From Dromaius novaehollandiae (taxonomy: Eukaryota; Chordata; Aves; Casuariiformes; Dromaiidae), in assembly GCF_036370855.1 (NCBI RefSeq), contig NC_088110.1, forward strand, positions 25,358,001-25,422,000: a stretch of DNA of 64,000 bases. Reading direction: 5' to 3'. Of this stretch, positions 48,501-57,725 are shown in pieces (the stretch's first letter is position 1; each line of letters begins with the position of its first letter). The translations under genes were made by a program, and so were the position numbers. The notes under the pieces are model-generated. The model was given only the letters and a program-made list of their open reading frames with translations. It was not told the origin of the DNA and did no database searches.

Positions 48501-50457
48501 ATTGATGAAGTTGTAAATACTGATTTGTATGAGTCAGTTCTGTGCTTTATTCTGGATTATTTGAGGGCATGGGCTCACGTGAACAATATGCTACTTAACA
48601 TGCAAGAAGTTAAAGAACAGCCAAGAACACTGGGGAAACTGTATACTCTGTATGTGCTGACCTAGAAAAGAGAGAGAGGGCTCTGTCGGTGATTTTGTAT
48701 CCAGGGGACTGAAGGCTGGCCTTGTACTAGTGAGCCAGAGGACTATCTGGTGGGAACAGGAGGTAAGTAATACCTCCAGGTTACAGCAGTAGTGCAATCA
48801 CTACTCGATGTTTTCTTCCTCGGGGTGTAATGTCCACACTTCAGCATGCATGTTAACAAAGTTGGAAATAGTTCAGAAAATGCACAGAAATTATTTAATG
48901 CTTGGGTAATCTGCCTCACAATGAGAAAGTAGAAAGTCATAATCTCATTCATAGAGAAAAAATGAGTTTCATTCAAGAGCCGTAAGTGAGATTCTCTGGC
49001 CAACGTGCTGCTGGTATTTTTAGGTGCACATTTCAAAAGATTCACTGCAACATGCCCCGTTTAGAATGCAGCAAAAACTTGTTGGATAACACTCTGTGAC
49101 TGCCAGCATGGGGGATGACAGGTACTGGGAATGTCTGTGCTGTGGTACCTGGACCCTGATGCCTTGTTCCTAGAGCGCAGCTGACTTAGCTGTGTCTGTG
49201 TTGCACTGGCATGTTTCAAGGGCTCTAAACCAGTATGTGGGCAAGGGAGAGACTACTCTCAGAATGATCTGTTGGTAGACCTAATGCTACTGCTTCATTT
49301 CTCTTTGTTTGCAGGACAACAAGGTTAATGGTGTGACTTGCTGTACTCGAATGCTGGGCTGCACGTACTTGCATCCCTGGATCCTGCCCAAGCCACATAT
49401 CAGTTCCATTCCACTGACTGTACAAGATGAGCTGCTGCTTCTGGGGAACAAAGCTCTCTGGGAATACCTTTCTTACACGGAGGCCGTCTCAGCTGTGCGC
49501 CATCTACATGACCCGCTAGCTGCCGCAAAGAAACTCTGCACTTTAGCCCAAAGCTATGGTTGCCAAGACAATGTAGGTGCAATGGTGGTGTGCCTGAACA
49601 TTAGCGAGGACAGCTGCACTTGCGAGATGCATGGACTCACCCTGCCAGGCCCTGGGGGGTTTAGTTCAACCACCACCAAACTAGTAACACCTTCCTCTAG
49701 CAGTGGAATTGCTTCAGAGTTCAGCAGTGAACTGTCTGCCTCTGAGGTGAGCAGTGAGGTAGGCTCTACTGCTTCAGATGAACACAGTGCTGCTGGGCTT
49801 GAGGGCAGCTCGCTACCACGACAAGAGCGGCGTTGCAGCCTACATCCTGTACCCCCCTCCAGCATCTTTCAGCGCCAACCTTCCTGTGCCACCTTCTCTA
49901 GTAACCAGTCTGACAACGGGCTGGATAGCGACGACGAGCAGCCTGTGGAAGGCGTCATGACGAATGGCAGTAAAGTGGAGGTGGAGGTGGACATCCACTG
50001 TTGTAAAGGAAAGGGGCTGGAGTTTGAACCTCCTGCTGCGGAGTACAGCTCCTCTGCTGCAGTGCCAGAGGATGACTCTGACGGGCTCGTCCTCATGATC
50101 CAGAGACAGAACAGTGTAAACAGCAACACTGCGCAGGCAGGAGTCAAGGAGAAGTGTGAACTGCAGAAATCACCTTCCACGTGCTGTCTCTATGGAAAGA
50201 AGCTTTCCAATGGCTCCATAGTGCCCTTGGAGGAGAGCCTCGACCTCATCGAAGTAGCCACAGAGGCACCCAAGAAGAAAACAGGCTATTTTGCTGCTCC
50301 ATCCCAGATGGAGCCAGAGGATCAGTTTGTGGTGCCACCTGATCTGGAGGAGGAGGTGAAGGAACAAATGAAGCAGCACCAGGAGAATGGAGCAGATCAG
50401 GAGCAGAAAGAGGAGCCTGCAGTGGCTCTGCCAGAGGAGTTTGATACGGCTTTGTAA
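16669..50457 (+). CDS. PHLPP2: PH domain and leucine-rich repeat protein phosphatase 2
   Basis: PHLPP2 dephosphorylates the hydrophobic motif of AKT and PKC, ending growth signalling. Nineteen exons join in frame: 16669-16809, 17203-17447, 26358-26491, 29287-29477, 29875-30000, 31267-31421, 35452-35598, 37832-38062, 38784-38986, 39508-39568, 40316-40411, 42461-42616, 43418-43618, 45561-45723, 46311-46441, 46846-46956, 47418-47606, 47741-47972, 49315-50457 (4,056 nt, 1,351 residues). Order: Gly/Pro-rich extension (1-50), RA-like region (about 100-175), PH domain (about 176-283), about 20 LRRs (about 284-800), PP2C-type domain with metal-binding D854-G-D856 and D1056 (about 805-1060), Ser/Glu-rich tail, and C-terminal D-T-A-L, a PDZ ligand of PHLPP2 (PHLPP1 ends D-T-P-L). 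All introns are GT-AG. The human protein (1,323 residues) starts at M-K-R-N-G-S; here that Met is Val, so translation must start upstream, most simply at the ATG at 16669. Confidence 0.96.
17203..17447 (+). CDS. PHLPP2: PHLPP2 exon 2 (conserved N-terminus)
   Basis: It reads R-N-V-K-R-N-G-S-R and continues into the conserved N-terminal region, ending L-H-G-D-L-V plus two bases of Arg. GTG stands where mammals have the initiator ATG. The Thr/Ser homopolymer run of human PHLPP2 is reduced here to D-S-S-V-T-A-S-S-D. Acceptor gcccggcag is weak in pyrimidines; donor gtgagg is strong. Confidence 0.93.
18144..18170 (+). repeat. Short interstitial telomere-like tract
   Basis: The tract reads GTTAGGGTTAGG-TTAGGG with TTAGG variants: about four imperfect copies of the vertebrate telomere hexamer within 27 bp. 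It lies in PHLPP2 intron 2. No flanking target-site duplication was seen. Confidence 0.8.
24485..25700 (-). mobile_element. CR1 non-LTR retrotransposon, 5'-truncated, reverse orientation
   Basis: Read on the - strand this is the 3' part of a CR1 LINE, characteristic of birds and reptiles. The decayed reverse-transcriptase frame (25028-25663) shows [24 protein letters not shown] and a degenerate catalytic region F-A-E-D-T-K where active copies have F-A-D-D-T-K. The 3' UTR lies at 24485-24650. It sits inside PHLPP2 intron 2, antisense to the gene. It is inactive: truncated, with frame breaks in its distal part. Confidence 0.93.
26358..26491 (+). CDS. PHLPP2: PHLPP2 exon 3 (RA-like region)
   Basis: It completes Arg and reads [16 protein letters not shown] through C-M-I-R-F-Y-S plus one base. 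This is the RA-like (ubiquitin-fold) region upstream of the PH domain. Acceptor ttttgacag, donor gtaaga. Confidence 0.95.
27598..28240 (-). mobile_element. Ancient, degraded CR1/L3-like LINE fragment
   Basis: In reverse orientation the segment keeps the outline of an old CR1-type 3' end: the start resembles the 'TAGAATCATAGAATTATAGG' tail, and 28080-28135 resembles the 'GTTGAACAGTA...CCCAGGACAGACCCCTG' block. Divergence is high and the borders are approximate. It sits in PHLPP2 intron 3. Confidence 0.5.
29287..29477 (+). CDS. PHLPP2: PHLPP2 exon 4 (PH domain, first part)
   Basis: It reads [25 protein letters not shown] through I-L-P-L-I-G-G-K, ending phase 0. It forms the first strands of the PH domain. 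Acceptor ttttttcttcag, donor gtgaga. Confidence 0.96.
29875..30000 (+). CDS. PHLPP2: PHLPP2 exon 5 (PH domain, C-terminal part)
   Basis: It encodes 42 residues from [10 protein letters not shown] through [10 protein letters not shown], phase 0 at both ends. The Trp lies in the C-terminal helix typical of PH domains. Acceptor cccattgcag, donor gtgagg. Confidence 0.96.
30137..30177 (+). repeat. T-run plus (GT)n microsatellite
   Basis: A 10-base T run is followed by about 15 GT units (30147-30177) in PHLPP2 intron 5, starting about 135 bases downstream of exon 5. Confidence 0.95.
30526..30555 (+). repeat. (AT)n microsatellite
   Basis: About 15 perfect AT units lie in PHLPP2 intron 5, flanked by AT-rich DNA. 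Confidence 0.95.
31267..31421 (+). CDS. PHLPP2: PHLPP2 exon 6 (PH-LRR junction, first LRR)
   Basis: It reads [20 protein letters not shown] through L-R-H-N-F-M and then a divergent R-P-S-G-A-G-S-L-D stretch, ending L-C plus two bases. The donor is gtctgc, a poor match to gtragt. The junction with exon 7 keeps the frame and restores R-F-S-Q-L-K. Confidence 0.93.
35452..35598 (+). CDS. PHLPP2: PHLPP2 exon 7 (LRRs)
   Basis: It reads [15 protein letters not shown] through L-P-S-Q-I-G-K-L-L plus two bases of Asn. It carries two L-x-x-L-x-L-x-x-N-x-L repeats. Acceptor ctgccattag, donor gtaagt. Confidence 0.95.
36658..36679 (+). repeat. Poly-T run (22 T)
   Basis: A pure T homopolymer in PHLPP2 intron 7. 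It could be the tail of a reverse-oriented retroposed sequence, but no body is recognised next to it. Confidence 0.95.
37798..37818 (+). repeat. PHLPP2: T21 homopolymer forming the polypyrimidine tract of PHLPP2 exon 8
   Basis: Twenty-one consecutive T end 13 bases before the exon 8 start; the remaining acceptor is gtgcctgctgcag. Runs this long are unstable in replication and in sequencing. Confidence 0.9.
37832..38062 (+). CDS. PHLPP2: PHLPP2 exon 8 (LRRs)
   Basis: It completes Asn and reads [18 protein letters not shown] through H-I-K-N-V-D-L plus two bases of Arg. It holds about three LRRs. The donor gtaagg is strong. Confidence 0.96.
38784..38986 (+). CDS. PHLPP2: PHLPP2 exon 9 (LRRs)
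   Basis: It reads [16 protein letters not shown] through L-R-A-L-Y-A-N-S-N plus one T. With exon 10 the split codon is TGT (Cys). Mammalian PHLPP2 has Arg here, as in N-R-L-T-A-V; CGT to TGT is a single CpG-type change. Acceptor gtgtttag, donor gtatgt. Confidence 0.93.
39508..39568 (+). CDS. PHLPP2: PHLPP2 exon 10 (micro-exon, one LRR)
   Basis: A 61-base exon reading [19 protein letters not shown], plus split codons at both ends. It is too short to stand out on its own; it is supported by exact phase fit between exons 9 and 11 and by the conserved V-Y-P-V-P motif. Acceptor cttcatcag, donor gtaagt. Confidence 0.92.
40316..40411 (+). CDS. PHLPP2: PHLPP2 exon 11 (LRR)
   Basis: After a split His it reads [24 protein letters not shown] through L-P-S plus two bases. 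Acceptor tctcttctcag; donor gtcagc is below consensus. Confidence 0.94.
41265..41510 (-). mobile_element. CR1 LINE 3'-end fragment, reverse orientation
   Basis: It starts with ATCACAGAATCACAGAA, the reverse complement of a CR1 3' terminus. It continues through the block equivalent to 'CCTGTTCCAGTGCT...CACAGTAAAAAAGTG' and 'CCCGTTGCCTCTCATCCTGTCACTGGG'. It is 5'-truncated at about 245 bp and lies in PHLPP2 intron 11. Confidence 0.9.
42461..42616 (+). CDS. PHLPP2: PHLPP2 exon 12 (LRRs)
   Basis: It reads [18 protein letters not shown] through [10 protein letters not shown] plus two bases of Asn. Acceptor gtctttctag, donor gtgagt. Both flanking introns are phase 2. Confidence 0.96.
43418..43618 (+). 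CDS. PHLPP2: PHLPP2 exon 13 (LRRs)
   Basis: It reads [22 protein letters not shown] through N-N-L-Q-T-F-P-A plus two bases of Ser. The acceptor (gctatggttag) has a weak pyrimidine tract; donor gtaaat. The protein is almost identical to mammalian PHLPP2. Confidence 0.95.
44290..44860 (-). mobile_element. Ancient CR1-type LINE fragment, reverse orientation
   Basis: The sequence at 44335-44430 (TCTCTGAACCCTTTCCAATTT, then AAACTGGACACAG) matches the outline of an old CR1 3' region read backwards. The rest (poly-pyrimidine, AGTACTAGTTCATC block) is more decayed. It sits in PHLPP2 intron 13; borders are approximate. Confidence 0.65.
45561..45723 (+). CDS. PHLPP2: PHLPP2 exon 14 (LRRs)
   Basis: It completes Ser and reads [18 protein letters not shown] through L-H-L-P-H-I-Q, ending phase 0. 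Acceptor tttctctttcag, donor gtattc. Confidence 0.96.
46311..46441 (+). CDS. PHLPP2: PHLPP2 exon 15 (last LRRs)
   Basis: It reads [19 protein letters not shown] through H-K-T-L-D-I-F plus two bases of Ser. This ends the LRR solenoid. Acceptor gatattgcag, donor gtgagc. Confidence 0.96.
46846..46956 (+). CDS. PHLPP2: PHLPP2 exon 16 (linker into phosphatase domain)
   Basis: It reads [17 protein letters not shown] through [14 protein letters not shown] plus two bases of Lys. The W-S-H-G motif is the first strand of the PP2C-like domain. Acceptor ctctctgtag, donor gtgagt. Confidence 0.95.
47418..47606 (+). CDS. PHLPP2: PHLPP2 exon 17 (phosphatase domain, metal-binding DGD)
   Basis: It reads [11 protein letters not shown] through [11 protein letters not shown] (metal-binding Asp854 and Asp856) to F-L-V-S-H plus two bases of Arg. 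Compared with my memory of the human protein, a few residues are missing after E-E-V-Q-Q-S. Acceptor ttttctgacag, donor gtagga. Confidence 0.96.
47741..47972 (+). CDS. PHLPP2: PHLPP2 exon 18 (phosphatase domain)
   Basis: It reads [18 protein letters not shown] through [10 protein letters not shown], ending phase 0. Donor gttcgt is weak, but the junction with exon 19 is conserved (I-T-E then D-N-K-V-N-G-V). Acceptor tcctccaacag. The exon 17-18 intron is only 134 bases. Confidence 0.95.
49315..50457 (+). CDS. PHLPP2: PHLPP2 exon 19 (end of phosphatase domain, tail, stop)
   Basis: The 1,143-base terminal exon reads [15 protein letters not shown] through [12 protein letters not shown], where Asp1056 is the last metal-site Asp of PP2C enzymes. 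A disordered tail follows with Ser/Glu-rich ([11 protein letters not shown]) and acidic (N-G-L-D-S-D-D-E) blocks. The end E-E-F-D-T-A-L-TAA gives the PDZ ligand used for scaffold binding (NHERF family, known for PHLPP proteins). Confidence 0.98.
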
Positions 50458-55896: not shown

Positions 55897-56120
55897 CTAG
55901 TGCTCACACGTTTGCGCTGGCTTGTTGCAGCCTGTTCTGTACCCCTGGACGGCGAGGCCCGCGCCGAGCAGCTGTGCCACGGCAGCTCTCTCCGCCCCGT
56001 GCAGGCCGCACCTGAAGCCCTGGTAGCCTTTGCTTTGGTGCAGGTGCTCCCTGTCTCTCGCCCCACACGGGCGAGCTATAAACCGCCTGCAGCTCGCGGA
56101 AGAAGCAGAACGGAGCGGGC

Positions 56121-56152
56121 AGCCGCCACCGCCACCGCCACCGCCACCGCCG
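56121..56152. repeat. CCACCG-type hexamer repeat in the MARVELD3 relic
   Basis: About five copies of (CCACCG)n, read as (GGTGGC)n on the - strand. They coincide with the second change of reading frame in the MARVELD3 relic and turn that membrane segment into alternating Ala-Val. Confidence 0.85.
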
Positions 56153-56234
56153 CGTCCAGGCCGCACTCGAGCAGCGGCCAAGGCGGGCACCGCCCCGGCA
56201 GCCGCAGGGCGGAGGCAGGAGGAGGCCGCGAGCG

Positions 56235-56247
56235 CCCCCCCCCCCCC
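56235..56247. repeat. C13 homopolymer in the MARVELD3 relic
   Basis: Thirteen C on the + strand (G13 on the coding - strand). It lies at the start of the interval in which the reading frame of the relic first changes. Its length is also hard to sequence correctly. Confidence 0.9.
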
Positions 56248-56790
56248 GGCCATGGCTGCCCTCGCCGCCGGCAGCTGCCGCAGGCGGAGCTGCCCGTCCA
56301 GCCGCCGGGCCCGCTCCCCGCCCGCCCCGCCGAAGCCGCTGTGCGCCCCGCCGTGCTGCTAGCAGTAGGCGCCGCCCGGGCTGGGGACGCCGGCGTAGCC
56401 GCCCACGGCGCCGCGGGACACGGGGCCGCAGACGAGGATCAGCAGGGCCAGCAGCGCCTCCACCGCGGGGCAGCAGGCTGCGGGGCGGAGCGCCGCGGCG
56501 GTCGGGCGGTCGGGCGGTCGGTGGGTGGGTGGGAGGGTGGGGGGCCGCCCGCAGGCCCCGCGCCCCGCCGCGCCCGCCCGCCCCGCCGCTCACCCCGCCC
56601 GTGCACAGGTACCGGCACCGGCGGCACTCCAGCAGCCCCGGCGGCGCGGCGCGGCGCTGAGGGGAGACAGCGGCGTCGGCGAACCGGCCCCAACCGGTCC
56701 GCGCCCGCCCTCACCGCCCGTCCGGCCGCGCCCGCCGCTCCCCTCCGCCGTGGCCCGGCCCGGCCGCCCGCGGGGTGGGGCCGGGGCCGG

Positions 56791-56846
56791 GGCGGGGTGC
56801 GGCGGTGGCCGGGGCGGGGTGCGGCGGTGGCCGGGGCGGGGTGCCC
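56791..56846. repeat. 22-bp GC-rich tandem repeat
   Basis: The unit GGCGGGGTGCGGCGGTGGCCGG occurs twice perfectly (56791-56812, 56813-56834), followed by a partial third copy. It lies in the CpG island upstream of the MARVELD3 relic, where the missing first exon would be expected. Confidence 0.92.
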
Positions 56847-57604: not shown

Positions 57605-57725
57605 CAAGAAGGGCTGAGTTGATTCAGGATGCGTTAGGTGACCCCGCTTCAGCAGGGAGGTTGGACTAGGTGATGGCCAGAGGTCCCTTCCAACCGCAAC
57701 CCTTCTGTGACTCTGTGTTTCATGG
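57605..57725 (+). mobile_element. CR1 LINE 3' tail, forward orientation
   Basis: The block GGTTGGACTAGGTGATGGCC, then AGAGGTCCCTTCCAACC and TTCTGTGACTCTGTG, is the standard 3' end of CR1. It is severely 5'-truncated, about 100 bp. Confidence 0.92.

Follow-up and report, generated by a model that had tools for sequence, protein, structure and literature searches.

What has become of MARVELD3 in the emu, Dromaius novaehollandiae, is the question raised by a stretch of 64,000 nucleotides (C13:25358001-25422000 of a 1.468-Gb genome in 271 contigs; hereafter the window), where sequence resembling this gene lies on the minus strand close to PHLPP2. An earlier note, made from the letters of the window, had read this sequence as a broken relic and the gene as lost. 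We therefore asked whether the sequence is MARVELD3, whether it could still encode a protein, and whether the bird holds another gene of the same type.

Searched with human MARVELD3 isoform 2, a query whose letters may not be exact, the window gave two minus-strand tblastn matches at positions 56638-56597 and 56478-55936, with an E value of 1e-29 when the two pieces were summed and composition adjustment was switched off. With the adjustment, the relic pieces reached E 1e-20, 1e-7, and 0.008, and the remaining matches of this protein in the window lay at E values of at least 0.5. A frameshift-aware alignment of the MARVEL part, for which three frameshift penalties were tried, found 91 of 176 aligned residues to be identical (51%) and scored 333, whereas the 10 shuffled proteins aligned at the same penalty reached 28-42. 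The MARVEL landmarks that had been reported in order on the minus strand were all recovered, namely GLLECRRCRYLCTG (56638-56597), ACCPAVEALLALLILVCGPVS (from 56478), GGYAG, GGAHSGF, LRLPGRCP, SPVWGERQ, QSKGYQGFRC, HGA, and GYR, and 12 of the 14 residues that tblastn aligned in the exon 2 remnant are those of human isoform 2. When the same protein was compared with the whole genome, the relic was returned at 44% identity with one TAG (E 5.6e-23), and its similarity to MARVELD3 was above that to other MARVEL proteins. No relic frame matched the Pfam MARVEL profile (PF01284) above the curated cut-off; such negatives are uninformative for MARVELD3, because human MARVELD3 also falls below that cut-off (23.8 versus 32.8) and an intact MARVELD3-type exon on contig C2 of this genome, described below, gave no Pfam match at E 0.1, MARVEL included.

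The position of the relic points to the same gene. On one side, a convergent plus-strand open reading frame encodes the C-terminal portion of a PP2C domain (profile positions 161-255 of 255; E 1e-14) and ends in DTAL, as PHLPP2 does, the name being given from its place and this C-terminus. On the other side, a human TAT query matched 11 plus-strand pieces from 65916 to 73297, in window coordinates continued past the window end. The order PHLPP2-MARVELD3-TAT and the relative orientation are the same in human. With PHLPP2 on one side and TAT on the other, the relic thus lies in the ancestral MARVELD3 place, which upholds the synteny that had been proposed from the convergent PHLPP2 neighbor. The features of the locus, together with the exon on contig C2, are collected in Table 1.

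Table 1. Coordinates of the features discussed (window positions, except for the exon on contig C2)
Feature	Position	Strand	Remarks
PHLPP2, last large ORF	49285..50457	+	convergent neighbor; stop-to-stop frame that begins in an intron; from the ORF list
MARVEL exon relic (exon 3), isoform 2 type	55897..56477	-	three frames; 51% over 176 residues
Hexamer repeat CCGCCA (+ strand letters), 4.8 copies	56123..56151	-	at the middle frame break; breaks 56135 and 56127
In-frame TAG	56361-56359	-	shortly past membrane segment 1; human isoform 2 has a tyrosine here
Presumed intron, 116 bases	56478..56593	-	GT and AG borders; from the translation of the joined exons
MARVELD3 exon 2 remnant, RRAAPPGLLECRRCRYLCTGG	56594..56656	-	after acceptor-like ctcag, before donor-like GTGAGC; borders read from the sequence
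MARVELD3-type MARVEL exon	C2:92482240-92482896	-	intact

Several repeat-like sequences were also observed in the window. A G+C-rich unit of 22 bases is tandemly repeated (3.4 copies, 56770-56844) just upstream of relic exon 2 on the relic strand, and a minus-strand piece at 57632-57716, in the interval between the relic and TAT, resembles what we take to be the end of a bird CR1 repeat and was possibly inserted in the former MARVELD3 gene body. An open minus-strand frame at 25031-25717 matches the reverse transcriptase profile RVT_1 (E 9.1e-11) and is probably a piece of a CR1-type LINE. Rfam gave no matches in the window at gathering scores.

Having established what the sequence is, we then considered whether it could still be read. 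No open frame runs across the four membrane segments. The in-frame TAG sits exactly where it had been reported, and the spread of the landmarks over three frames was borne out by the alignment, in which exon 3 passes through three frames before coming back to the one it started in. The frame changes near 56211, 56135, and 56044, and a fourth break, at 56127, is seen with all but the highest of the three frameshift penalties. The same alignment shows a 4-residue deletion after SSCL and a fourth (last) membrane segment that is 8 residues short; the segment is therefore shortened as the earlier note had claimed, by eight residues rather than its approximate nine. The presumed join of exons 2 and 3 (56594 to 56477) is out of frame. 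These breaks are not an artifact of the method, because the same alignment against human isoform 2 gave zero stops and zero frame breaks for the C2 exon (195 residues aligned, 29% identity). We infer that the relic locus makes no working protein: the product would stop at the TAG, past the first of the membrane segments, with the four-pass MARVEL fold unfinished, and even readthrough would be futile, since the frame breaks and the shortening of the fourth segment would still disrupt the fold.

The composition of the region calls for some caution about these lesions, which were called from one assembly of one bird. Across the relic, G+C is 0.78-0.84 and the CpG observed/expected ratio is about 0.9, and exon 3 contains a 13-base C run (plus strand, 56235-56247) in addition to the hexamer repeat. 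Because of this high G+C, base-calling error has to be borne in mind, and the G+C-rich region, the C run, and the repeat, as the likeliest sites of such errors, count against a pseudogene. One might accordingly suppose that MARVELD3 is intact in the animal and that its stop and breaks arose through faulty assembly or base calling where G+C is extremely high, all the more so as the homopolymer run and the hexamer repeat lie near two of the breaks and as G+C-rich bird genes of this kind are described as hard to sequence (PMC12954441). However, this would require several independent errors within one gene, and a substitution stop, deletions of 8 and 4 residues, and an out-of-frame splice join are atypical of run errors. 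Since a substitution-type stop, two in-phase deletions, and several breaks are combined here, error is unlikely to be the whole cause, and we regard an intact gene at this locus as improbable.

A frame of 153 codons (56358-55897) is open below the TAG, which also counts against a pseudogene; it exists because the frame breaks of exon 3 sum to zero and return it to the first frame. This frame, and the GT-AG-like borders that exons 2 and 3 retain, would suit a locus that encodes a shortened or altered protein, either one ending at the TAG or one using the open frame below it. We consider such a protein very unlikely, as exons 2 and 3 would presumably be joined out of frame, membrane segments two and three are read in frames different from the open one, and no exon 1 was recognized. 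The human N-terminus, compared with the stretch from the relic to TAT, gave only low-complexity matches, and these were rejected as relic exon 1 since matches of the same kind occur elsewhere in that stretch; exon 1 is therefore gone, diverged, or not recognizable. The N-terminal part of MARVELD3 is poorly conserved even among known species. In human, this cytoplasmic part comprises 198 residues (PMC2805614).

Beyond the window, the whole-genome search with human isoform 2 returned a second match with a score nearly equal to that of the relic, at C2:92482333-92482893 (29% identity, no stop, 299-codon frame, E 2.6e-23), the third match having an E value of 5.65. The exon on C2 has an acceptor-like border (ctttcccctcacag), and no N-terminal match or upstream exon of its gene was found within about 14 kb upstream. 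In a comparison of five proteins, human isoform 2 matched the C2 protein at E 1e-29, and the occludin- and tricellulin-type proteins of this genome matched human isoform 2 at E values of at least 2.8 in either direction and the C2 protein at E values of at least 0.003. A search of the whole genome with the C2 protein found no second copy of the exon, its sole other match having an E value of 1.98, and did not return the relic at E values up to 10. This miss counts against reading the two sequences, which are linked mainly through human isoform 2, as sister genes. When the window and 20 kb beyond it were searched with the C2 protein for the second MARVEL exon known from mammals, the relic matched at E 0.008, a weak match that likewise speaks against a close pair, the rest lay at E values of at least 0.18, and no such exon was found.

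For chicken, a pair of MarvelD3 genes, A and B, is reported; they lie on different chromosomes and are 51% and 24% identical, respectively, to human isoform 2 (Steed et al. 2009, PMC2805614). The relic (51% over its aligned part) would fit the variant A type and the C2 exon (29%) the variant B type, an assignment that was set by these published percentages and the separate chromosomes. On this assignment one of the two MARVELD3 genes would be dead, and the C2 exon presumably comes from a functional variant B gene through which the role is retained in part or in full. The claim that MARVELD3 has been lost in this bird is accordingly to be narrowed: the locus is broken and the human protein found no second copy of the same gene in the genome, so the loss of that gene is supported, whereas its survival only as a relic is not, given the intact paralogous exon on C2.

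Searches of the whole 1.47-Gb assembly with protein pieces and DNA of the relic turned up no further copy of it. Four weak matches of the protein pieces (E 2.3 or worse), which were translated, and one further weak match (E 6.6) were read as chance, and six further DNA matches, about 30-115 bases long and 73-90% identical (best E 2.5e-8), were attributed to shared G+C richness. An assembly of 271 contigs may be incomplete, and the relic might in principle be a processed (retrotransposed) or duplicated copy, with the true variant A intact in sequence missing from the assembly; with an intron-like stretch retained between exons 2 and 3, the syntenic place occupied, and no other isoform-2-type copy in the assembly, this is hardly credible. 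In this assembly the intron is kept, the place is the ancestral one, and no working copy of the same gene is seen elsewhere, as in a unitary pseudogene. Taking the homology, the place, the lesions seen in this assembly, and the search for a second copy together, we conclude that the locus is in all likelihood a unitary pseudogene. On this reading it is the variant A gene of birds, orthologous to mammalian MARVELD3 of the isoform 2 type, which still sits where it ancestrally lay, with PHLPP2 and TAT as neighbors, and which was inactivated on the way to this bird. The QSKGYxGFxC-HGA block of the relic is still clear, which could suggest either a young loss or errors.

As for what might cover for the dead gene, occludin, tricellulin, or claudins had been proposed. 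They are not the first candidates, because a MARVELD3-type gene on C2 is intact in its MARVEL exon, though occludin- and tricellulin-type exons are open as well; the C2 paralogue is the nearest candidate to cover for MARVELD3 A. A Pfam MARVEL profile search of the genome gave 18 matches, the relic and the C2 exon not among them, and 14 of the 18 were classified (L004-L007 were left out). Ten, translated and read by eye, resemble four-pass proteins of other families, three were assigned to the occludin or tricellulin type, and a fourth (L003) is a near-identical second copy of one of these. The open MARVEL exons, named by eye, are of the occludin type on C25 and of the tricellulin type on C33/C35 and on C25. 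The tricellulin-like gene on C25 (about 1453790-1455449; L008:1069-2728) combines a MARVEL exon (E 5.7e-11) with a downstream Occludin_ELL match (E 2.8e-11), is followed some 5 kb further on by the MARVEL exon of occludin (L001), and is distinct from the MARVELD2-type gene on C33/C35, to which it is 49-52% identical. The MARVELD2-type locus itself is present twice, once on C33 (71.8 Mb) and once on C35 (86.0 Mb), both large contigs, at 99.1% identity over 3.5 kb, and three of the six DM-domain matches lie on C35 and none on C33. Sex chromosomes of ratites are described as homomorphic (PMC10891136), and the two contigs are probably a Z and a W that has degenerated little and still shares a long region with it, which is the ratite arrangement and points to a palaeognath.

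If variant A is indeed dead, the MarvelD3 form missing from this bird is the one described by Steed et al. as shared by all vertebrates (PMC2805614). We lean towards the view that it is a natural knockout of MarvelD3 A/isoform 2 living on the divergent B alone, in which case B would have taken over the junction and JNK roles of A, or these roles would be dispensable in the lineage. A lineage without A but with B would allow the roles of the two MarvelD3 genes of birds to be told apart, with chicken, for which both are reported, as the comparison. In Xenopus, where Steed et al. found only MarvelD3 A (PMC2805614), depletion of MarvelD3 disrupted eye development and left eyes abnormally pigmented or missing (PMC5155527). 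MARVELD3 expression has been measured in chicken liver, the gene copy being unspecified in the relevant passages (PMC11382517). Among the matches listed from the literature on chicken, duck, zebra finch, and birds, there was no report of MARVELD3 loss in birds.

Compared with known systems, the relic is closest to human MARVELD3 isoform 2 (NM_052858) and chicken variant A, which it resembles in sequence (by its identity to human isoform 2), in its place between PHLPP2 and TAT, and in an exon border at the same point, the latter as described in PMC2805614, where alternatively spliced isoforms are reported from mammals only. Unlike these genes, it has a stop, frame breaks, a short fourth membrane segment, and no recognizable exon 1. 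The C2 exon resembles chicken MarvelD3 B in its low identity to human isoform 2 (29% versus 24%; PMC2805614) and in lying on a chromosome other than that of the relic. The loss of MARVELD3 in one bird lineage is an event of a known kind, as illustrated by STK33, a unitary pseudogene of birds and, like the gene behind the relic, a conserved vertebrate gene that bird lineages have either lost or kept (PMC4509753). The two differ in the lineages concerned, since STK33 is reported to be kept in palaeognaths and lost in neognaths (PMC4509753), whereas for MARVELD3 the probable loss is in Dromaius, a palaeognath, and the gene is reported in chicken.
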